This document shows positions 11,688 through 45,470 of a DNA stretch of 52,928 nt, one piece after another. The translations under genes and the position numbers were made by a program. Every line of letters starts with the position of its first letter. Position 1 is the stretch's first letter. Source of the stretch: Candidatus Cloacimonadota bacterium (GTDB lineage: Bacteria; Cloacimonadota; Cloacimonadia; Cloacimonadales; TCS61). The notes below the pieces were generated by a model. The model was not told the origin of the DNA. It worked only from the letters and a program-made list of their open reading frames with translations, and made no database searches. The DNA lies in NCBI GenBank assembly GCA_021735645.1, contig JAIPGP010000015.1, forward strand, positions 1-52,928. Reading direction: 5' to 3'.

Positions 11688-11712
11688 AAAAAAAAGGCTG
11701 CCGAAGCAGCCT
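11687..11712 (-). terminator. Intrinsic terminator between the surface-protein genes and umuD
   Basis: Read on the minus strand, AGGCTGC-TTCG-GCAGCCT forms a perfect 7-bp stem with a stable UUCG loop (11695-11712) followed by eight T. It ends the 14920-11722 surface gene run. The plus strand also carries a T-run after the stem, so it may work both ways. Confidence 0.9.
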
Positions 11713-11721
11713 GTATTTTTT

Positions 11722-12759
11722 TCATTTGAGCAGCAGCATTCTGCTGTATGCCTTGCTGGATGCACCTTTTATCTGACAAAAATAAACTCCGCTAGCTACT
11801 GCATTGCCCCGCTCATCTGTTCCCTGCCAGGTTACTCGTGATAGTGAATTTGGCACTAAACCGCTCAAATGAAAGCCCTTCACAAGCTGACCTTTGACTG
11901 AATAAACATTCACTTCCACGCTGGTCTCATCGCAGGGAACCAGGAAGTTTATGGTCGTGCTGGGATTAAATGGATTAGGACTGATGCTGTGGATCCCCAC
12001 TTCTGTGATATGAGTCGGAACATTATCCAGAGCATTTACATTGATAACTGTGACCACGATCTCATCAGGCAGCGAATTATGGATGCCGTCATTAACAATG
12101 AGAGAGATAATATATTCAGTGTCTTCGGTTACTGTGGGAGCTGTGAAAGATGGGGTGGCAGAAGTGGGATCACTAAGGATTATTTCAGCCGGAGCTGTCC
12201 AGAGATAGGTGAGATTATTACCTTCAGGATCATAGGAATTGCTGCCATCCAGATTTGCTGCAGTTTCTTCATCGACAGCAATATCAGCACCTGCATCTGC
12301 TAAAGGCAGCAGGTTCTGACCATTGACTGTGATGCTGCCATCTGTAGTGTTGTTGATGGGAGTGGCATTAAATTTAAAATCGTGAATATCAAGATCAGAA
12401 TTGCCGGATATCCCTGTAAAAGTTAATCTTATAATAACCCCTGTTCCGGTCTGTGCTTCGTAATGACTGTAGGCAGCTATCAGGTTTCCAGGCTCAGTTT
12501 CATTCACCAGCAGCATACCATCTGTGAAGATGTCACCTTCGTCAAAATCATTATAGGTAATAGTATTCGGATCATAATTCATTTCAAATTGAAAACTGAT
12601 AACGTCATAGTCCTCGATCAGTTCAGAAGTTGCAATATCAATAGATATACTTTCTCCGGCGTTAACGTTACCAGAAGAAACGATGATCGCAGCGTCTTCC
12701 AGATCTGCAAACATACTAAATGCGATTAACAGCAGTGAGATAATTATAATTTTTTTCAT
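11722..12759 (-). CDS. Secreted cohesin-PKD protein with T9SS-type sorting domain
   Basis: 345 residues. A signal peptide (KKIIIISLLLIAFSMFA) leads into a cohesin-like domain at about 20-148, with paired strands such as ISFQFEMNYDPNTITY and GVIIRLTFTGI. A PKD/REJ-like beta domain follows at about 150-245 (DAGADIAVDEETAANLDGSNSYDPEGNNLTYLW). The C-terminal 85 residues (SPNPFNPSTTINF...ERGNAVASGVYFCQIK...RMLLLK) are a FlgD-like/type A sorting domain used for type IX secretion and surface attachment. Downstream partner of a second cohesin and a dockerin enzyme. I infer it anchors dockerin proteins to the cell surface. Confidence 0.88.
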   Translation of the reverse strand: MKKIIIISLLLIAFSMFADLEDAAIIVSSGNVNAGESISIDIATSELIEDYDVISFQFEMNYDPNTITYNDFDEGDIFTDGMLLVNETEPGNLIAAYSHYEAQTGTGVIIRLTFTGISGNSDLDIHDFKFNATPINNTTDGSITVNGQNLLPLADAGADIAVDEETAANLDGSNSYDPEGNNLTYLWTAPAEIILSDPTSATPSFTAPTVTEDTEYIISLIVNDGIHNSLPDEIVVTVINVNALDNVPTHITEVGIHSISPNPFNPSTTINFLVPCDETSVEVNVYSVKGQLVKGFHLSGLVPNSLSRVTWQGTDERGNAVASGVYFCQIKGASSKAYSRMLLLK

Positions 12760-12773
12760 AGTTCTTTCCTGAT

Positions 12774-13238
12774 TTATTTTTTTGTATTGGGAGGCAGCAC
12801 TTTGATAGCTGCGTCATAAACCTGTGTCATTATATCCGAGTTCATTTTAAATTTATCAAACTGCAGGTGAGTATCACCTATGGTTTTGGCGATAAAGATC
12901 AATTCTACCAGAGTTCCATTGCCTTTTTGGGGCTGGTAGTGACTGCAGGCTACTTTAATGAGACCAGCTTCTTGTCCATTAGCCATCAGCATGGCATTTT
13001 CAAAGAGATCTCCCGGTTTATGATTGATGTATTGCAGTATTTCACTATCGTAATAAGCATCGAATTGAAAGGCGATCACCCGCATGTCTTCTGTTATATC
13101 ATTAGCATTTACATAAATACGGATAGTATCTCCCACCGTGGCAGTATAGTTTCCGCCATCAATGGAAATGTCTCGAATATCAGCAGCCAGAAGACTGGCT
13201 ATCAGCAATAATCCTGCGATAAACACTACTTTTTTCAT
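12774..13238 (-). CDS. Secreted single-domain cohesin protein
   Basis: 154 residues: a signal peptide (VVFIAGLLLIASLLAA) and then one cohesin-like domain to the end (VGDTIRIYVNANDITEDMRVIAFQFDAYYDSEILQY...GTLVELIFIA). It is clearly a diverged paralogue of residues 20-148 of the neighbouring cohesin-PKD protein: both share the I/V-x-FQF-x-x-YD, G-D-x-F-x-x-x-ML and AxSHYxxQxGxG patterns. There is no sorting domain. AGGAG lies before the start. It sits between the dockerin enzyme and the anchored cohesin protein in the same transcript, so it may be a free adaptor or a split scaffold piece. Confidence 0.82.
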   Translation of the reverse strand: MKKVVFIAGLLLIASLLAADIRDISIDGGNYTATVGDTIRIYVNANDITEDMRVIAFQFDAYYDSEILQYINHKPGDLFENAMLMANGQEAGLIKVACSHYQPQKGNGTLVELIFIAKTIGDTHLQFDKFKMNSDIMTQVYDAAIKVLPPNTKK

Positions 13239-13303
13239 ATTTTTTAACTCCTGTAATAAAGACTTATATTTCTTTTAATACTGTCAATAGAAATCTTGCT
13301 CTA

Positions 13304-14920
13304 TCATCGCTCAACCGGAAACTGCTCAATGATACCCACGAAATACTGCAGTATCAGCGATACATCATAGCTGTCCAGTTCCTGGCTGCCATCCACATCT
13401 GCTGCAATTATCCTGGCTGCGTCCCAGGGCAGTGGATCAAGCTCCGGTAAAGGGTCAAGACCAACCACATATTGCAGCAGCAGAGCAGCATCAAAAGATT
13501 CCACACTGCCATTTTCGTCCAGGTCGCCATAAGCAATTGCCTGCAGAATGGCAAACTGATGCGGATCATATTCACCAGCGAGCGGATGGTCGATCTGATT
13601 GCCTTCCACATCCGCAGCATGAAGGTAATACTGAAATATCCCTTCTGTGTTCGGCAGCACCAGACTTGATTCCCAGTTTCCGGAACCATTATTTGTCATG
13701 GGCTCAAAATTCCATGCTTCACCCTGTATTCTCCAGCCGATATATATGGAATCTGCCAATAGAGCTACCTGACTATATGCCTTAATCTGAGCACTGAAAT
13801 CAAGTTCTATTCCTCCGGACTGCTCCTGCCAGTAAGGCAGATGCTCCACGTGCAGCATATTGCGGTCGGCTATGCCTTTCGTGCGGCAGTGCAGGGCGTC
13901 TGTACTCACCCAGCTTCCGGTGAATCCGGCGATTTCATAGCCCGGTAGAGCAGTTTCATATACTTCCAGAGCTTCATCATCCCAATTGCTGCCTGTGATG
14001 GGAACAAATACACGCTTATTAAGTATTAGAGAATTTGTATAGGGTTGATCACTGGGTGTGTAAACCCGGTAAACTTCATAAGGATAGCCCCAGGAACAGT
14101 TCTGAGATGCAAAATAATCTGCTGTTTCTTCTATCTCATCATATTGGGCATGACTGGCAGGCACTTCTCTAATCAATACTTTGTCAACTGCCAGAAATTT
14201 GCCCCAGCAGTCTATATGGTCAATATAGGTATTATTAGGGTCAGGCAGGATATGATAATTATTTATACCCAGATAATCAGACATCAGTGTATTGATTTCC
14301 TGGGTAGTGAGATCAGGATTTTCATAGATTACCAGATCTGTAGCAGCGGAAATCCCATAGCCATCAGTCATATAATTTCCACCGGTTTGCTCCAGCGGCA
14401 TGCCGTAAAGCGGAATATTCAAAAAATCTGCTACTTCTATGGGAATATCATTATCATTTGGACGCGGTCTGTTATAGATAAAATTCACAATTGCTATTTC
14501 ACTGCCGTCATAGATATACCAGGGTCCATAATCCCGACACCAGTAGCTGTCAGATGGTGCAATCAAGAATTCGCAGTTTGCCAGATTAACGCCATTGCTG
14601 TTATAACTGGCAGTTACAGTATTCTGAGCTGCAGTGCTGGAGACTATGGTAACCACTTTATCTTCCTGAGAGAAGCTGGCAATCAGGCTGTAGCTGATGC
14701 CAAAGGGGTAGCGGATCAAAACTCCTTCCATAGGCTCAAATTCCGCAATGTTCCGGGCAGAGGCAGGAGGGTCGGTTTGATAAAAGTCTCTTGAAGCTGG
14801 AATCTCGATTTCCTGCTTCGACAAATAATGCCCTCGCTGTGGATTATCACGCAACAGTGGTGATTCTGACCTTAGTCCCATCAGCATAATAAGTAATAAT
14901 ACCAAGATAAGCTTTCGCAT
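13304..14920 (-). CDS. Secreted peptidylarginine/agmatine deiminase-like enzyme with dockerin
   Basis: 538 residues: a signal peptide (1-18), a guanidine-deiminase catalytic domain (about 40-360), a beta domain (about 370-460) and a C-terminal dockerin (about 465-535). Catalytic residues match Porphyromonas PPAD in order and spacing: Asp130 in WCRDYGPW, His235 and Asp237 in DHIDCW, Asn296 in YTNSL and Cys345 in ALHCRTKG. The dockerin has two EF-hand-like calcium loops, DLDENGSVESFD and DVDGSQELDSYD, each followed by a helix ending LLQYVVGL or ILQYFVGI. The expected reaction is arginine to citrulline or agmatine to carbamoylputrescine, outside the cell. Two cohesin genes follow downstream. Confidence 0.92.
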   Translation of the reverse strand: MRKLILVLLLIMLMGLRSESPLLRDNPQRGHYLSKQEIEIPASRDFYQTDPPASARNIAEFEPMEGVLIRYPFGISYSLIASFSQEDKVVTIVSSTAAQNTVTASYNSNGVNLANCEFLIAPSDSYWCRDYGPWYIYDGSEIAIVNFIYNRPRPNDNDIPIEVADFLNIPLYGMPLEQTGGNYMTDGYGISAATDLVIYENPDLTTQEINTLMSDYLGINNYHILPDPNNTYIDHIDCWGKFLAVDKVLIREVPASHAQYDEIEETADYFASQNCSWGYPYEVYRVYTPSDQPYTNSLILNKRVFVPITGSNWDDEALEVYETALPGYEIAGFTGSWVSTDALHCRTKGIADRNMLHVEHLPYWQEQSGGIELDFSAQIKAYSQVALLADSIYIGWRIQGEAWNFEPMTNNGSGNWESSLVLPNTEGIFQYYLHAADVEGNQIDHPLAGEYDPHQFAILQAIAYGDLDENGSVESFDAALLLQYVVGLDPLPELDPLPWDAARIIAADVDGSQELDSYDVSLILQYFVGIIEQFPVER

Positions 14921-15056
14921 ATTTTACTCCTGAAACCATTTCAATTTTTCTAAATATCGCCTTCCTTAATTGTCAAGTATAAATATTATCGGCATCACCC
15001 CGAAATTAATCGCGAATGTAGCATCGTTGAATTTACTGCCAAACACAATCTTAATA

Positions 15057-15131
15057 ACCACCAACTTCAGTTGGTGGTAAAGATAAACAAACGAAGTATA
15101 GTCACTTCAGTGACTTCATCAAATATTTAAG
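15057..15131. repeat. REP-like element copy B (inverted relative to copy A)
   Basis: ACCACCAACT-TC-AGTTGGTGGT at 15057-15078 and AGTCACT-TC-AGTGACT at 15100-15115, with the same connecting sequence as at 1-75 but in reverse orientation. It is the first of several palindromic elements in the gene-free stretch 14921-15789. Confidence 0.8.
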
Positions 15132-15177
15132 TAAGATACAGTGAATTTATAAATGTGTTAACTCTTAATTATTATGA

Positions 15178-15241
15178 AGTGGTTGAAACCACTAGCTCTC
15201 TCTTTGCGATCATTAACACCAGATTTAAATCTGGTGTTAAT
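15178..15241. repeat. REP-like palindrome pair C
   Basis: AGTGGTT-GA-AACCACT at 15178-15193 and a perfect 30-base palindrome centred on ACCAGATTTAAATCTGGT at 15212-15241. The layout (short palindrome, spacer of about 18, longer palindrome bounded by TTAA) is the same as copies A and B, but the stem sequences differ. Confidence 0.65.
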
Positions 15242-15347
15242 GAGATCGGGAGATACAAATTATGCAGAGATTTATATTGATATAATTGTCCTATACAAAA
15301 TGATTTAGCTATCTTATTACTCTTATAAAACAGGGGGATGCCTGTAA

Positions 15348-15466
15348 CTAAGTCATATGTGCACCGCTGGGTATTTCCATGTCCATCCTTCGCCTACTCC
15401 GTCACTAAAGTTAAGGAGCACTTTCAGAAGGCTACGGCACGGTCTACGAGGGGCGCAGATGACGAC
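15348..15466. repeat. Dispersed repeat family R1, long copy
   Basis: This shares ends with 20347-20434: CTAAGTCA, then GTGCACCGCYGGGTATT, GTCCATCCTTCG, AAGGCTACGGCACGGTCTA and GAGGGGCGCAGATGACGAC. The long copy has about 30 extra central bases with an internal inverted repeat (CTCC...GGAG). Noncoding in all frames. Confidence 0.7.
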
Positions 15467-15560
15467 TGCTACCAACTGATTCCAGCTCGATGCATTTCTA
15501 AGGTTGAAATTTAGAATAGGTTAGCTGCTCAGTCCTAGTTCTCGCTCCACTTCCTCTTAT

Positions 15561-15620
15561 TAACCCCCAAATTAATTTGGGGTTAAGATGTACGAACAAA
15601 ATATAGTCGCTTCAGTGGCT
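15561..15620. repeat. REP-like palindrome pair D
   Basis: CCCCAAATT-AATTTGGGG at 15565-15582 flanked by TTAA-like ends, followed after 22 bases by AGTCGCTTCAGTGGCT at 15605-15620. It has the same architecture as copies A-C, with the second palindrome now imperfect. Confidence 0.65.
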
Positions 15621-15714
15621 TCTTATACCACCCGGATAAGCAGGCGTTTTAGACTTTACCAGGGACAAGAATCCTGGCGGCCATTAATTGCCTGCCATAT
15701 TCTTAAATATTATT

Positions 15715-15779
15715 AGTCGATGTCGCTCATCCCGATAATTCGGGACTGTCCCGGGTTCCGTTCAGAAGTCCTGGCTTGG
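15715..15779 (-). repeat. Dispersed repeat family R2, inverted copy
   Basis: In reverse complement it reads AAGCCAGGACTTCTGAACGG...CAGTCCCGAATTATCGGGATGAGCGACATCGACT, related to 20757-20823 and 23846-23914, which carry GCCAGTCCCG, CATCAGGATGAACTG, GTTCTGA and GAYATHGACTGA. Order of parts differs somewhat, so homology is partial. It ends just before the PTS-IIA gene. Confidence 0.45.
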
Positions 15780-15789
15780 TTTTCTCATT

Positions 15790-20346: not shown

Positions 20347-20434
20347 CTAAGTCAAAATGTGCACCGCCGGGTATTCCCAGGTCCATCCTTCGTACAAGGC
20401 TACGGCACGGTCTAAGAGGGGCGCAGATGACGAC
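20347..20434. repeat. Dispersed repeat family R1, short copy
   Basis: Matches 15348-15466 at both ends but lacks about 30 central bases (CCTTCGTACAAGGCTACGG here). It lies in the 20245-20928 spacer, which carries repeats and no gene. Confidence 0.7.
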
Positions 20435-26304: not shown

Positions 26305-29300
26305 ATGATAATAGATTCACGCTATAAAGTTCAGGAAGAGATGGGACGTGGTCCCTGGTCAATCGTTTATCGGGTCAAAGATATGCGTGAGGGCAGTGAA
26401 TATGCCTTAAAGCTGTTTGATGAAGTAAGCAGTGCGAAATATTTACTATCATTTCCACCCGAACGCATGCATCATATCATGAAAATCCGGCATAATAATC
26501 TGGTGAAAATCTATGACTTTGGTAATTTTAACCAGCATATATATTATGTAAGCGAGTTTTATAATAAGTCCACCCTGGCAAAATTTACTTTTACACCAGC
26601 GACTCTGGAGCTGCTCTATGATATCGTCGTGAAGTTGTGCTATGGTTTAAGTGCCCTGCACAGTCAGAAGCTCGTTCATCAATTATTAAAACCAACTAAT
26701 ATAGGATTTAATGTCAAAAACGGTAAAGTAGAAGTAAAGATCATGGATTACGGCTACACAAAGATAGATTTCACCAAGAGCAACGGTATGTCTGATTATC
26801 TGCCTTATATTGCTCCAGAGACCTTTAAGAAACAAAAAGCCACCCCCCAAAGTGATTTTTTCAGTCTGGGTGTAATTTTATACCAAATAGTCACAGGCAC
26901 GATGCCGTTTTCTGTTACGCACATGCATCAATTTCAGGATAATCCCAAGCTTAGCTTAATACCCCAATTTCCACGGCAGATAAATCCGACTATTCCGGTA
27001 TCATTGGAAAATATGATACTGCAGCTTCTGGATATGGACCCTGAAGAGCGTTTTGATAAAGCAGAAGATATTATATCATATATAAATAATACTCAGCCAA
27101 AAAAATATGCCTTTTCTCAGGTTCATTCTCATGTGAATAAAATTCAGCTTAGTGATTACATCGTGCGGGAGGATTATGCTCATAATCTCGTAGATCATGT
27201 AGAAACCGTGAAAAAGGGCAATGGCAAACTTGTGATGCTCTATGGCGGTAAAGGAATGGGCAAGACAGATGCTCTGGTTTTGTTCCGCTATCACTTGCTT
27301 AGCGGAGAGTATTTTATTTTTGATTATAATTGCAGTGCTCAGAACAAAGACCCCTTCTTTGCCTTGATTAGAGAATTTTATCATTCTGTGGAGAATAATA
27401 GCAAATTACAGCAGAATATGTGTCAAATATCAGATTGGATGAATGAAATTGTATTTCAGGACGATAAAAAACCTGTGATTGATACTGAAGAAAATCTGGA
27501 GCGGGATTTTCATGCTGCCAGTGAATTCCTGCAGCTTCTTTCCCGGATCAGACCTTTGGTTTTCACAATTCGTTCCTGCAAATACATGACCAGTCAGGTT
27601 GTAGATTTTCTGAATTATTTCTCCGATAGTTATTTATCTCAATTACCGATTATGATCATTTTAAGCGTTAATGACCCGCGAAAACTGAAAAGACTGGTTC
27701 ACCCGATTGAAATGAAGATGGAGCCTTTGAGCCTGGACAATACTGAAGAATATGTGAGCAAATTATTAAATACAACCCCGGGAAAGGAGTTTCTGCACGA
27801 ACTATGGGAAAGATCATACGGCAATCCGGGTTTTATGGAAAGAATACTCATTGATATGACCCGTAGGCAGATCATCTGGCAGAAAGGTGAATTTATCTTT
27901 GAGGGTAAAATGCAAGATTATAAACTGCCCAAAGAACTGGTGGAGGCTATTTACAGCAAGATGAGCCACCTTTCGCAACATACCTATCTGAAACTCGTCC
28001 AAATGGCAAATATCAAACTTCCCCGAACGCATGGGCTCCTGAGACATGTGCTGGAACTAAGTGATCAGGAACTGTATTTTGTCTTGAATGATGGAGTCAA
28101 TAATGAAATATTATATGAAAAAAATCATCAGGTAAATTTTACTTATAAAGAAGCAGGAGAGCGTTTCTTTAGTGAATGCGAAATCAAAATGCGTCAGCAT
28201 CTCTCCCAACTGGTGCTGTCATATTTTGCCGATGATGACCAGATGATAGACGGAGAAGATGTGAAAACCTTGTCTGTTCCGGTTGATAAGAGATTTGAGG
28301 AAATTGATTGTCTGAGAACTAATAATCTGCTCGTTTATATCAATGATAACAGCATTGATGATGAAAAGACCCTGCAGGGCTTGATCTATCACAGCGGCAA
28401 TTGTGAAGAATATTACCAGCAGAAGCTTTTTCAAAAGTATCTGGCACGACAATACAGCGAGAAGAAGCAGTTCGTGAAGGCGTTTCTTACTATGGTGGAA
28501 GTGATCAAGCTTGATCTTGATGATAATTTACAGCCGGAAATGAAGAGTCTGCGGGAAGATATATATATATTAATAGAATACGCTAACTGGATGAATTTGC
28601 AGCACATGCCTCCCGATTTCGCCCGTCTGGTGCGTCGCATGAAAGGCGGGTTTGAGAGAAGTTTCTTAATGGGAGCCTTTGATCTGGAAATTGAGCGTAA
28701 CTACCGGGCTTATATCTCGTTTAAAAAAGCGCTGGCAACTGCCGAAACTAAAGAAGAAAAAATGCGCGTTTTGCTGTATCTGGGTAGATATTACGTGCGG
28801 GTGAGTGAATATAAAGAACTGCATAAAGTGCTGGAAAAACTGGGAAAAATGAAGCTTGTTGAAGAATTTGAGACTATGTATATCAGTTTGCGTTGTTTTG
28901 AACTGGTGCATAATGGAGAAGTGCAAAGTGCCATCAAGCTGATAACTGATTATCTGGCCCGACAGGCAGGCAGCACCAAACCGAGTTTTTTTGTGGAATT
29001 AGGCGGATTATATATCAATCTGGGACAATATTATAACCTTGAGGGGGATTATAAGAAGGAGTTTGACTGCTATCAGGCAGCCCTTGATATCTGGCAGTCC
29101 ATAGGTTATGAACGTAAGCTGGGCATTGTCTATAACAACCTGGGGGATATTGCTTTGCGCCAGGGCAAAACACTTAAGGCATTTGAGCACTTTTTAAATG
29201 CCATCACTATCAGTGAGAAGGTTAATAATGTCACAAGCCTGATTCTCAGTTATTTGAATTATGGAGAAGCTTACATTAAGCAGGGTGACTTTGGCAAGGC

Positions 29301-31866
29301 TGAGGAGAATCTTCTGAAAGCTCAGGAATTGAGTGCAAAAATTGAAACGAATAGATTTGGAGCATCTATCATCAATAATCTGGCGATAGCACGCAGCAAA
29401 CAGCATAATTTTGATTATTACCGGAGTTTTATCGCCGAAAACCAGCCGGAACTGCTAAGGCATGAATTTAAAACAATCACGCCAATAGTGAAGACCTGGT
29501 TTTATTATCTCTCGCTGATTGGTGATATCAGTACTTTGGAGCGTCTGCTGAATGAGTCTGAAAATATTATAAATACTCAACCGGAATTTTACTGGCAGAC
29601 TATGGGTAATCTTCACTTCATGAAGCAGGAATATGACGAGGCACAGTATGCCTATGAGAATTGCCTGGAATATGCAAAACGCAGCAATAGCGAATATGCT
29701 TTGGCAATAGTCAATCTGTATCTCTCAAAGGTGAAATCAATCAAGGGAATGATTCGCGAAGCTTTATTCCATGAAAAAGTGGCAGGTGATCTGTGCCGGC
29801 GGAACCGGTTTAATTACTGGTCGCTGGTAATTCAGCTCAATCATCAATACCTGGATTTGCAGGATGAAAGAGTGAATCTGCGTAAGATTATCCGTGAATT
29901 GAATCGAATTGTGAAAGAAGCCGAGGTAAAAGGCTATTTCCAGATTGAGTTGCAAGGCTATGAACTTATACATTATATATTCAGTTTTCTGAAAAAGAAA
30001 CGTGAAAGCAGTTATTACCTGAAAATTTATCGGCAGAAACTTTTGAGTGCGGCAGCAGGAATTCCAGCAGAAGAAAAGGACAGCTACCTGAATTTCTATC
30101 ATTTTTATGATCAGGAACCGGTTAACTCAGCAGTAAAAATAATCAAACGCAACATCACCACCAATAATGTCTGGCAGGAGAATCTTTATGAACTGGTGAA
30201 AATAAAAGAACCTCAAAGAGTGCCATATCTGGTGCAGAAGATTTTTAACGATATCTTTGCACCGCACAAGATTGCCTTAATGCTCAAAGAACAGCTCAAA
30301 GAAAAATCTCTGCCCATGCTCTTCCAAAATATTGATCTGGAAGAACTTTATAGTGAGGAATACCTGAAACATATCAGGGAAAGCCTCAAACAAAACCTCA
30401 TCCTCCAGAAAAAGATCAAGGGCTGCAATGTTATCTTTGTGCCGCTGCAGATCAAATCATTGCAGAAAGGCTGTCTCGTACTGGCAGACAGCGGTGAACT
30501 TAACTTTCAGAAATATGAATTAGAAATGCTGTCTTTTATCAGATTACATCTCACTGCCATGCTGATGCGCGGCGAAGAATTTCATCAATTGAATGATCGC
30601 ATTGTTCTAATGAATAAACTGATTGATGCTACCGGCAATCTGTTTGAGGTAGTCAGTGCCCGGCGTATGCAGGAAGCTATCACTCGCTCAGCTATTAGTA
30701 TGATGAATGCTGTGCGGGGCTTTTTTATCACTCAGGAAGGTCTGGGCAATTTATCTTATACTGTGGCAATTGATGAAACCAATAATATTTTAGACCGATT
30801 CCAACACATTGGCAGGGAAGTATTAGCACAGGCAGCAGATAATAAACTGCCTGTATTTGTTAATAATAAACGAAACTCTAATCTGGTGCCCCAGATGGCT
30901 TCCGGCAGACTGCTTAATCTGGAAATTTTTGTGGCTCCAATGATCATTGACGAACAGACCTACGGCTATCTGTATCTGGATAATGCAAATTCCCAGAAAC
31001 GTAAACTTACGGTTAATCGTGAGTTTACTCCATTATTTTTGAAGCTGATGACTGCTATGCTGCGGAATGCCCTGCGCTATGAACGCGTGCTTGATCTGGA
31101 TAGAAAATCCACCCGACTCGAAGACCACAAAGAAAAATTTATCCAGATAGTTTCTCATGAATTGCAGCAGCCGGTTGCGGTTCTTAGAAATCTGATGAAT
31201 ACTATCAGCAGCTATAAACATGATGAAGACCTGGATGAATTAATAGAAAGCTTCAATGAGAAATCTACCCAGCTAAATCAGAGAATCATTGAAATAGTAG
31301 AACATTTCCACTACAGTATGCTGGAAAAGATCGAGATGCAAAAAGTAGATTTGCGGACTATTCTGGAAGCAGCCAAAGAACGCGCCGAGGGATATAGTAA
31401 ATCGCGACGGCTTTATTTCACCCTTGATCTGCCTTCCAAACCCCAATATGTGGCTATAGATGTTCGCATATTTAATATTCTGCTGGATAAAGTGCTGCTG
31501 AACACTATCAGGTTCTCCATTGACCTGAGCCTCACTACAATCGGCATGCGTCCAGCTACCACGCTGGCAGAAAAAGTGCAGAATATGGAGAGTATTATTA
31601 TCTATATCAAAGATGAAGGAATTGGTATCAAAGCAAATGAACTGGAAAATATCTTTCAGGAATTTTATGAAGTCAATAATATATACAGCCATAGATCCGG
31701 AACCACTGAGTTCAATTCTTCAGGATTGGGTCTGGGACTGGCAACGGCTCGAAAAATTGCGGAACTGCACGGAGGTAGAATCTGGGCAGCTGCTAATGAT
31801 AATGGGAAGGGAACTACATTTTATATTTCCCTGCCCCTGGTGAATGTGGAAAATACTTCACTATAA
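26305..31866 (+). CDS. Giant pseudokinase/AAA-ATPase/TPR/GAF/histidine kinase
   Basis: 1853 residues, start preceded by AAGGAG. Order: a Ser/Thr-kinase fold (about 7-265) with glycine loop GRGPWSIVY, Lys36 and DYG at 148-150; a P-loop ATPase (about 290-560) with Walker A GGKGMGKT at 314-321; helical TPR repeats (about 820-1240); a GAF domain (about 1435-1595); a HisKA box with His1618 in VSHELQQPV; and a HATPase with DEGIGI and GLGLGLA. No membrane segments, so cytosolic. This is the layout of the trifunctional kinase/ATPase/sensor kinase family. In the kinase catalytic loop, the usual H-R-D-L-K-P is HQLLKP: the Asp is Leu127, so Ser/Thr phosphorylation is probably lost. It is first in a four-gene operon ending with a response regulator. 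Confidence 0.92.
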   Translation: MIIDSRYKVQEEMGRGPWSIVYRVKDMREGSEYALKLFDEVSSAKYLLSFPPERMHHIMKIRHNNLVKIYDFGNFNQHIYYVSEFYNKSTLAKFTFTPATLELLYDIVVKLCYGLSALHSQKLVHQLLKPTNIGFNVKNGKVEVKIMDYGYTKIDFTKSNGMSDYLPYIAPETFKKQKATPQSDFFSLGVILYQIVTGTMPFSVTHMHQFQDNPKLSLIPQFPRQINPTIPVSLENMILQLLDMDPEERFDKAEDIISYINNTQPKKYAFSQVHSHVNKIQLSDYIVREDYAHNLVDHVETVKKGNGKLVMLYGGKGMGKTDALVLFRYHLLSGEYFIFDYNCSAQNKDPFFALIREFYHSVENNSKLQQNMCQISDWMNEIVFQDDKKPVIDTEENLERDFHAASEFLQLLSRIRPLVFTIRSCKYMTSQVVDFLNYFSDSYLSQLPIMIILSVNDPRKLKRLVHPIEMKMEPLSLDNTEEYVSKLLNTTPGKEFLHELWERSYGNPGFMERILIDMTRRQIIWQKGEFIFEGKMQDYKLPKELVEAIYSKMSHLSQHTYLKLVQMANIKLPRTHGLLRHVLELSDQELYFVLNDGVNNEILYEKNHQVNFTYKEAGERFFSECEIKMRQHLSQLVLSYFADDDQMIDGEDVKTLSVPVDKRFEEIDCLRTNNLLVYINDNSIDDEKTLQGLIYHSGNCEEYYQQKLFQKYLARQYSEKKQFVKAFLTMVEVIKLDLDDNLQPEMKSLREDIYILIEYANWMNLQHMPPDFARLVRRMKGGFERSFLMGAFDLEIERNYRAYISFKKALATAETKEEKMRVLLYLGRYYVRVSEYKELHKVLEKLGKMKLVEEFETMYISLRCFELVHNGEVQSAIKLITDYLARQAGSTKPSFFVELGGLYINLGQYYNLEGDYKKEFDCYQAALDIWQSIGYERKLGIVYNNLGDIALRQGKTLKAFEHFLNAITISEKVNNVTSLILSYLNYGEAYIKQGDFGKAEENLLKAQELSAKIETNRFGASIINNLAIARSKQHNFDYYRSFIAENQPELLRHEFKTITPIVKTWFYYLSLIGDISTLERLLNESENIINTQPEFYWQTMGNLHFMKQEYDEAQYAYENCLEYAKRSNSEYALAIVNLYLSKVKSIKGMIREALFHEKVAGDLCRRNRFNYWSLVIQLNHQYLDLQDERVNLRKIIRELNRIVKEAEVKGYFQIELQGYELIHYIFSFLKKKRESSYYLKIYRQKLLSAAAGIPAEEKDSYLNFYHFYDQEPVNSAVKIIKRNITTNNVWQENLYELVKIKEPQRVPYLVQKIFNDIFAPHKIALMLKEQLKEKSLPMLFQNIDLEELYSEEYLKHIRESLKQNLILQKKIKGCNVIFVPLQIKSLQKGCLVLADSGELNFQKYELEMLSFIRLHLTAMLMRGEEFHQLNDRIVLMNKLIDATGNLFEVVSARRMQEAITRSAISMMNAVRGFFITQEGLGNLSYTVAIDETNNILDRFQHIGREVLAQAADNKLPVFVNNKRNSNLVPQMASGRLLNLEIFVAPMIIDEQTYGYLYLDNANSQKRKLTVNREFTPLFLKLMTAMLRNALRYERVLDLDRKSTRLEDHKEKFIQIVSHELQQPVAVLRNLMNTISSYKHDEDLDELIESFNEKSTQLNQRIIEIVEHFHYSMLEKIEMQKVDLRTILEAAKERAEGYSKSRRLYFTLDLPSKPQYVAIDVRIFNILLDKVLLNTIRFSIDLSLTTIGMRPATTLAEKVQNMESIIIYIKDEGIGIKANELENIFQEFYEVNNIYSHRSGTTEFNSSGLGLGLATARKIAELHGGRIWAAANDNGKGTTFYISLPLVNVENTSL

Positions 31867-45300: not shown

Positions 45301-45470
45301 CTAACTTTTTTATTTATTTAGTTAGAAAGGGGAGTCCTAATATAGTCATCCCACCTTTCCAAGCACGGGAGGCATAAAAGTTTCCCTTTATACCCATTGG
45401 CAGAGCTCCTTGCCTTACGGTTTAGAAGGTTCTGCTCGGTGTTTACCAGACAAAAATCTCACATTACGTT
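45301..45470 (-). promoter_or_regulatory. Possibly structured leader of the uptake operon
   Basis: The stretch upstream of the lipoprotein gene can fold in several ways. GGGA at 45367-45370 can pair either with TCCC at 45349-45352 or with TCCC at 45383-45386, so the two stems exclude each other. ATAAA/TTTAT, GGCA/TGCC and CCTT/AAGG pairs are also present, and CTAAC/GTTAG (45301-45325) ends next to the ribosome site. It does not match TPP, cobalamin, FMN, SAM or lysine riboswitches as I recall them. It may be a new leader RNA or only a dispersed repeat. The remainder to 45593 shows nothing. Confidence 0.35.

Follow-up and report, generated by a model that had tools for sequence, protein, structure and literature searches.

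PPAD, the peptidylarginine deiminase of Porphyromonas gingivalis, is investigated as a driver of rheumatoid arthritis. Here we describe a PPAD-type deiminase that ends in a dockerin and is encoded beside two cohesin proteins, on a stretch of 52,928 nucleotides (the window; GenBank JAIPGP010000015.1, contig C130 in our numbering) of a 3.77-Mb metagenome-assembled genome (MAG). The host is a further species of Candidatus (Ca.) Stygibacter, a free-living anaerobic member of the Cloacimonadota. PPAD counts in one paper (PMC4585897) as the sole peptidylarginine deiminase known from prokaryotes and in another (PMC6147916) as confined to pathogenic Porphyromonas. Its residues Arg152 and Arg154 hold a C-terminal arginine by the carboxylate (PMC4893104), and in P. 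gingivalis the Arg-gingipains supply peptides that end in this residue (PMC4893104, PMC9559808). The type IX secretion system (T9SS) of that bacterium exports the gingipains, PPAD and the metallocarboxypeptidase CPG70, and proteins are reported to require a C-terminal domain for this export (PMC11285876).

The second body of knowledge that bears on this locus concerns cohesin–dockerin complexes. A cellulosome-like complex with docked C25 peptidases and glycoside hydrolases (GH) of families GH18 and GH57 was proposed for Ca. Stygibacter in 2021 (Williams et al., PMC8542988), and what we find agrees with it in genus, in the docked GH18, GH57 and C25 enzymes and in a large cohesin scaffoldin with a sorting domain. 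Its main text contains no deiminase, no M14 enzyme among the docked enzymes listed and no pair of a free and an anchored cohesin. The first-pass annotation of the window had considered a deiminase an unusual cargo and cohesin–dockerin display a matter of polysaccharide-degrading enzymes; the first view is in keeping with that main text, and the second falls, docked peptidases having already been reported there for the genus. The type I cellulosomes of clostridia share with the present system the dockerin and cohesin folds and the multi-cohesin scaffoldins, and clostridial OlpA, whose cohesin (3ul4) is the best sequence match, is comparable in role to small cohesin anchors. In contrast to clostridia, the system described here belongs to an outer-membrane bacterium, some of whose proteins bear T9SS-like sorting domains, its scanned cargo is rich in proteases with no cellulase found, and it includes a free single-cohesin protein without an anchor. 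The planctosome of freshwater Planctomycetes, likewise cellulosome-like and proposed for polypeptide degradation (Andrei et al. 2019, as cited in PMC8542988), is called distinct from the Stygibacter structure by Williams et al. (PMC8542988), and we set it apart on the description given there. New here are the deiminase cargo and the unusual free cohesin, in an already known type of complex. Our literature search for PPAD together with dockerins returned a single, unrelated co-mention, with most subscription journals outside its reach, and earlier mentions of PPAD homologues may exist.

A PPAD with a dockerin in place of a sorting domain

Three genes occupy positions 14920 to 11722 of the minus strand. 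They encode a 538-residue PPAD-type deiminase with a C-terminal dockerin (13304–14920; PF04371, E 2.1e-28; PF00404, E 1.2e-6; PPAD structure 6i0x), a free, putatively secreted cohesin of 154 residues that has neither anchor nor sorting domain (12774–13238; PF00963, E 1.5e-10; AlphaFold2 (AF2) model), and a 345-residue cohesin–PKD–sorting-domain protein, the putative surface anchor (11722–12759; PF00963, E 5.7e-7; PF22352, E 4.1e-10; TIGR04183). The first-pass annotation had named the deiminase, its dockerin, both cohesins and the sorting domain, and the open reading frames, Pfam scores above the curated cut-offs and TIGR04183 bear it out; each protein opens with a hydrophobic, signal-peptide-like stretch, as read by eye. 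The genes are separated by only 65 bp (deiminase to free cohesin) and 14 bp (free cohesin to anchor protein), and a stem-loop resembling an intrinsic terminator, with a 7 bp stem, a UUCG loop and a run of seven T, starts 10 nt past the stop codon of the third gene (11695–11712, minus strand). Because of this spacing and the stem-loop with its T-run, the trio is likely cotranscribed as one unit, in line with the single transcript first proposed.

By its sequence, the enzyme is a true PPAD. The solved structure 6i0x is matched at E 7.2e-128 over residues 46–459, which span both the catalytic domain (residues 59–347; 13880–14746, minus strand; Pfam PAD_porph and a residue table against 84 homologues) and the PPAD immunoglobulin-like (Ig-like) domain (about residues 348–459; 13544–13879, minus strand; alignment to PPAD crystal chains through residue 459). 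The Asp/His/Asp/Asn/Cys catalytic set that had been read in the sequence is complete: Asp130, His235, Asp237, Asn296 and Cys345 align with Asp130, His236, Asp238, Asn297 and Cys351 of PPAD (5/5). Arg151 and Arg153 correspond to the Arg152/Arg154 pair of PPAD, and the equivalents of the pocket residues Trp127, Tyr233 and Ile234 are also present; the catalytic residues and the equivalents of Trp127, Arg152, Arg154, Tyr233 and Ile234 are kept in 83–84 of the 84 homologues. Since catalytic set, arginine pair and pocket residues are all in place, the reaction to be expected is the conversion of C-terminal peptidyl arginine to citrulline. The earlier description of the protein as a secreted PPAD-type deiminase agrees with the structural match and the signal-peptide-like N-terminus, and the arginine-derived amines once offered as a substrate conflict with the conserved carboxylate-binding pair (PMC4893104).

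The likeness to the P. gingivalis enzyme therefore extends to both domains, to all catalytic and carboxylate-binding residues, to predicted secretion, and to a host that has T9SS parts and many gingipain-family proteins. The two differ in that the window enzyme ends in a dockerin rather than a sorting domain, its putative anchoring partner being encoded separately, and in that its host is an anaerobic Cloacimonadota species, not an animal pathogen.

The dockerin (residues 463–537; 13310–13534, minus strand; Pfam, alignment and sequence reading) lies at the extreme C-terminus and consists of two complete calcium-loop repeats. It scores 29 bits against PF00404 (cut-off 22.9), and an alignment of 39 dockerins of the genome confirms that both loops are complete. 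It begins directly after the Ig-like domain, at the very point where most relatives outside its dockerin-bearing clade carry a sorting domain, and stands in the place of a T9SS C-terminal sorting domain, of which this PPAD has none of its own. The gingipain family C25 offers a wider comparison: among complete C25 proteins of this genome, a sorting domain is found in 30/33 of those without a dockerin (two of the three exceptions being fragments) and in 3/8 of those with one (Fisher p = 0.003; with the fragments left out, 0.0005). Judged from this contrast in domain composition, a dockerin can stand in for a sorting domain.

Of 125 Cloacimonadota genomes, 109 encode PPAD-like proteins (E up to 1e-60), as do 67 of the 71 of good quality, counts in which the lower-identity matches (35–45%) were checked residue by residue only in part; such proteins are also found on Bacteroidales and Marinimicrobia contigs. 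Dockerin numbers are bimodal across the phylum, with 21–45 in seven genomes and at most four in the other 118. Six of the seven dockerin-rich genomes have a docked PPAD, and in the seventh the PPAD gene is cut by a contig end. The PPAD tree calls for three changes of state in the dockerin; well-supported branches force two or more of these, and dockerins therefore joined PPAD at least twice. As a separate observation, many other Cloacimonadota genomes (e.g., G001, G004, G012 and G014) have just a single dockerin, carried by a protein of about 950–980 residues whose length resembles that of the docked GH57 protein of the present genome (C123, 971 residues); a lone conserved dockerin is odd in genomes that may lack cohesins.

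Two cohesins, one strongly diverged, in a conserved gene order

The anchor protein comprises a cohesin domain (residues 28–145; 12325–12678; Pfam and fold match), a PKD-like domain (residues 156–238; 12046–12294; PF22352 and alignment) and a type IX-like C-terminal sorting domain (residues 259–341; 11737–11985; TIGR04183), all on the minus strand. The sorting domain passes the TIGR04183 cut-off (29.3 bits vs 23) and falls slightly short of that of Pfam Por_Secre_tail (PF18962; 25.9 vs 27). Shorter orthologues of the anchor, of 252 residues and without the PKD-like domain, are found in Ca. Stygibacter frigidus (L050) and in a further genome of the genus (G088). An AF2 model of the free cohesin (mean pLDDT 71.5) has only cohesins as its best Foldseek matches, and solved cohesins are likewise the top matches of the cohesin part of the anchor protein, whose full model has a mean pLDDT of 58.8 and is poor in the middle, for which reason only its cohesin and sorting parts were used. 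Both proteins, as modeled, adopt the cohesin jelly-roll fold, and the unrelated beta sandwich that, by the first-pass annotation, would have refuted its reading did not emerge.

In the cohesin tree, the free and the anchored cohesins of the trio are sisters and form a separate pair (98/87). The stem of the free cohesin is long, at 1.67 changes per site, and the branches inside it are short; according to the tree, this protein changed strongly after the duplication and has stayed constant thereafter. This pattern of a long stem followed by short branches points to a job for the free cohesin that differs from that of the anchored one. Its unique substitutions show no concentration on the canonical dockerin-binding sheet (5/19 conserved columns vs 4/14 on the other sheet).

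The order of the three genes is kept in four genomes, namely three of Ca. Stygibacter (the present one, L050 and G088) and one relative (L051, which is G083), as was found by the neighborhood search that the first-pass annotation had suggested. Identities are 76% for PPAD and 71% for the free cohesin in Ca. Stygibacter frigidus, and 70% and 69% in the relative. Because the same order recurs in these independent MAGs, chance, misassembly and contamination were rejected as origins of the trio. Outside the trio genomes, the free cohesin had no orthologue at E 1e-15 in the 125 genomes searched from the phylum; G092 has a match of only 29%, inside a larger protein.

The deiminase within a proposed genome-wide complex

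The trio is not the only cohesin–dockerin locus of its genome. About 31 cohesins are present, most of them within large scaffoldins, those on C43, C69, C98 and C110 having two to nine each, and 38 dockerin proteins were found, 37 of them complete and 21 of these without a sorting domain. The latter include five C25 proteins, three M14 carboxypeptidases, a GH18, a GH57, a CotH-kinase protein and PPAD. The docked enzymes identified are mostly protein-acting (the C25 gingipain family and M14), joined by a chitinase (GH18) and GH57, and no cellulase or hemicellulase appeared among the dockerin proteins scanned (C25, M14, GH18, GH57, CotH and others), which make up part of the set. On contig C110, a scaffoldin with five cohesins forms a row with two docked C25 genes and one more dockerin protein, and some 5–12 kb beyond this row lie two PPAD paralogues with sorting-domain-like tails. 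Parts of a T9SS are encoded as well, with SprA at 449 bits (cut-off 200) and PorV at 242 (cut-off 90). The cargo resembles what the T9SS of P. gingivalis exports and is here partly wired through cohesin–dockerin modules. Given cohesins and dockerins throughout the genome and a PPAD dockerin indistinguishable from the rest, the self-contained mini-cellulosome that had been envisaged for the trio is not supported.

Two side observations concern the same protein families. Peptidase_C25 has 44 matches in the whole genome, the catalytic Cys being present in 41/41 aligned domains that cover the site and the catalytic His in 19 only, which suggests that many members are inactive or altered. A 300-residue dockerin protein that adjoins a docked C25 gene on C32 (L181:5091–5993) has dockerin matches that overlap, which hints at a third repeat or part of one.

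We propose that the trio makes a secreted deiminase that would convert the C-terminal arginine of peptides to citrulline with release of ammonia, and that would be held at the cell surface by cohesin–dockerin binding rather than by a sorting domain of its own. PPAD would then be one part of a genome-wide cellulosome-like complex with mostly protease cargo, and its substrate peptides would come from proteases attached to the same surface; the partner of its dockerin could be the anchor of the trio, a large scaffoldin, or both. On present evidence, surface-held citrullination of C-terminal arginines on peptides from neighboring proteases is the most likely function, and we consider it probable. 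Within it, we infer that the PPAD dockerin binds a cohesin, that the complex sits on the outside of the cell and that peptides with a C-terminal arginine are the real substrate. What the cell would gain is a matter of speculation: ammonia and citrulline for catabolism, or protection of the peptides from carboxypeptidases. Genes for ornithine carbamoyltransferase (430 bits) and carbamate kinase (382 bits) are present, both over the cut-off.

Several points weigh against this proposal. A PPAD without a sorting domain would need some other way across the outer membrane, and the PorU-like protein of the genome scores 384 against a family cut-off of 420. In the docked C25 proteins, the catalytic His column holds Tyr or Phe in four of eight, for which reason some of them may be inactive; with this replacement and an Arg-specificity that is putative, it is conjecture that docked C25 enzymes supply the substrate. 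An alignment of one docked C25 protein to gingipain R gave no reading of that specificity, the region being too divergent and the catalytic His column holding Tyr.

The alternative that survives best, and that we regard as a real though not the favored possibility, is that PPAD rides as one passenger among many on the large multi-cohesin scaffoldins, the small cohesins serving other ends, such as different dockerins, or adding one landing site. The PPAD dockerin shares 50–70% identity with most of the genome's other dockerins (the nearest, at 70%, is carried by a C25 protein) and agrees with them at the canonical recognition positions, reading [AS][FY] ahead of the last loop Asp. A private pairing of PPAD and anchor, as might be read from these recognition residues, was rejected because they are uniform across the dockerins of the genome, and the dedicated anchor of the first-pass annotation is only suggested, by conserved adjacency. 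Scaffoldins with two to nine cohesins exist in the genome, and on C110 the two PPAD paralogues lie near one of them and near docked C25 genes. Against a passenger role stand the persistence of the trio in four genomes across about 70% identity, the near absence of the free cohesin elsewhere in the 125 genomes (E < 1e-15) and the separate pair formed by the trio cohesins in the tree. This alternative overlaps with surface-held citrullination as proposed above, which allows either partner, and our confidences in the two do not sum.

Two further ideas start from the problem of export. Cohesin–dockerin binding may act as a co-export adaptor, whereby enzymes that have lost their own sorting domain would bind a cohesin in the periplasm and be carried through the T9SS by the sorting domain of this partner, with the diverged free cohesin as a periplasmic holder or release factor for the dockerin; we think this unlikely, and if true it would be a new role for the cohesin–dockerin pair, beyond surface display. 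Still less probable, in our judgment, is that PPAD and the free cohesin form a soluble periplasmic pair that acts on imported peptides, only the third protein reaching the surface. Neither PPAD nor the free cohesin has the C-terminal domain reported to be needed for T9SS export (PMC11285876), and the free cohesin has no anchor, as such a pair would have it; however, at least 21 dockerin proteins have no sorting domain, including C25 proteins of 1,200–1,800 residues and a chitinase that would have little to do in the periplasm, and the PPAD of one genome (G060) carries a dockerin and a sorting domain on the same protein.

That there is no binding between the cohesin- and dockerin-like modules, which would instead serve in stability or adhesion, as some of their kind outside cellulosomes may do, is very doubtful: such modules are widespread outside cellulosomes (Peer et al. 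2009, in the citation given by PMC8542988), but the sharply bimodal dockerin counts, the finding of cohesins, when sought with the free cohesin of the trio (E < 1e-15), only in dockerin-rich genomes, the intact calcium loops and a fold that matches binding cohesins all speak for binding. An agmatine or free-arginine deiminase in place of a peptidyl enzyme is the least credible alternative and was rejected, for although agmatine deiminases share the PAD_porph family and the catalytic set, and PPAD itself is reported to accept free arginine as well (PMC4893104), agmatine deiminase models reach only 46 bits (E about 1e-12) against cut-offs of 382–483, the PPAD-type substrate residues Arg152/Arg154 and the Ig-like domain are both kept, and the protein is predicted to be secreted.

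Surroundings of the trio and wider meaning

Upstream of the PPAD gene lies a non-coding region made of sequences repeated across the genome (14921–15789, minus strand; sequence comparison and Rfam scan), about 870 bp long here and about 15 bp in Ca. Stygibacter frigidus; no Rfam family reached threshold in it. Its elements recur at many intergenic sites, e.g., near L187, L190, L204 and L263, and related repeat stretches within the window lie at 14921–15789, 1–167 and 20347–20434, one copy forming the start of the contig. Downstream, the neighbors encoding a UmuD-like S24 peptidase, a DUF975 protein and an SRAP protein are conserved as well but lie past the terminator. Elsewhere in the window, a molybdenum/tungsten cofactor riboswitch (45336–45453, minus strand; 65 bits vs cut-off 36) lies upstream of a minus-strand gene cluster (45292–38104). 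An 1,853-residue protein (26305–31866, plus strand) combines a Ser/Thr protein kinase, a weak AAA match, TPR repeats, a weak GAF match and a histidine kinase, and is followed by a 956-residue TPR protein, a 487-residue protein without a Pfam match and a response regulator.

Complete PPADs are thus found in the majority of genomes from a phylum of free-living anaerobes, beside gingipain-family proteases, and this co-occurrence suggests that the pairing of protease and deiminase is an old peptide-feeding trait and not an invention of virulence. The docked PPAD raises the question how, in a bacterium with an outer membrane, enzymes that have no sorting domain reach the outside, and it offers a clean test case for the peptide-feeding idea.

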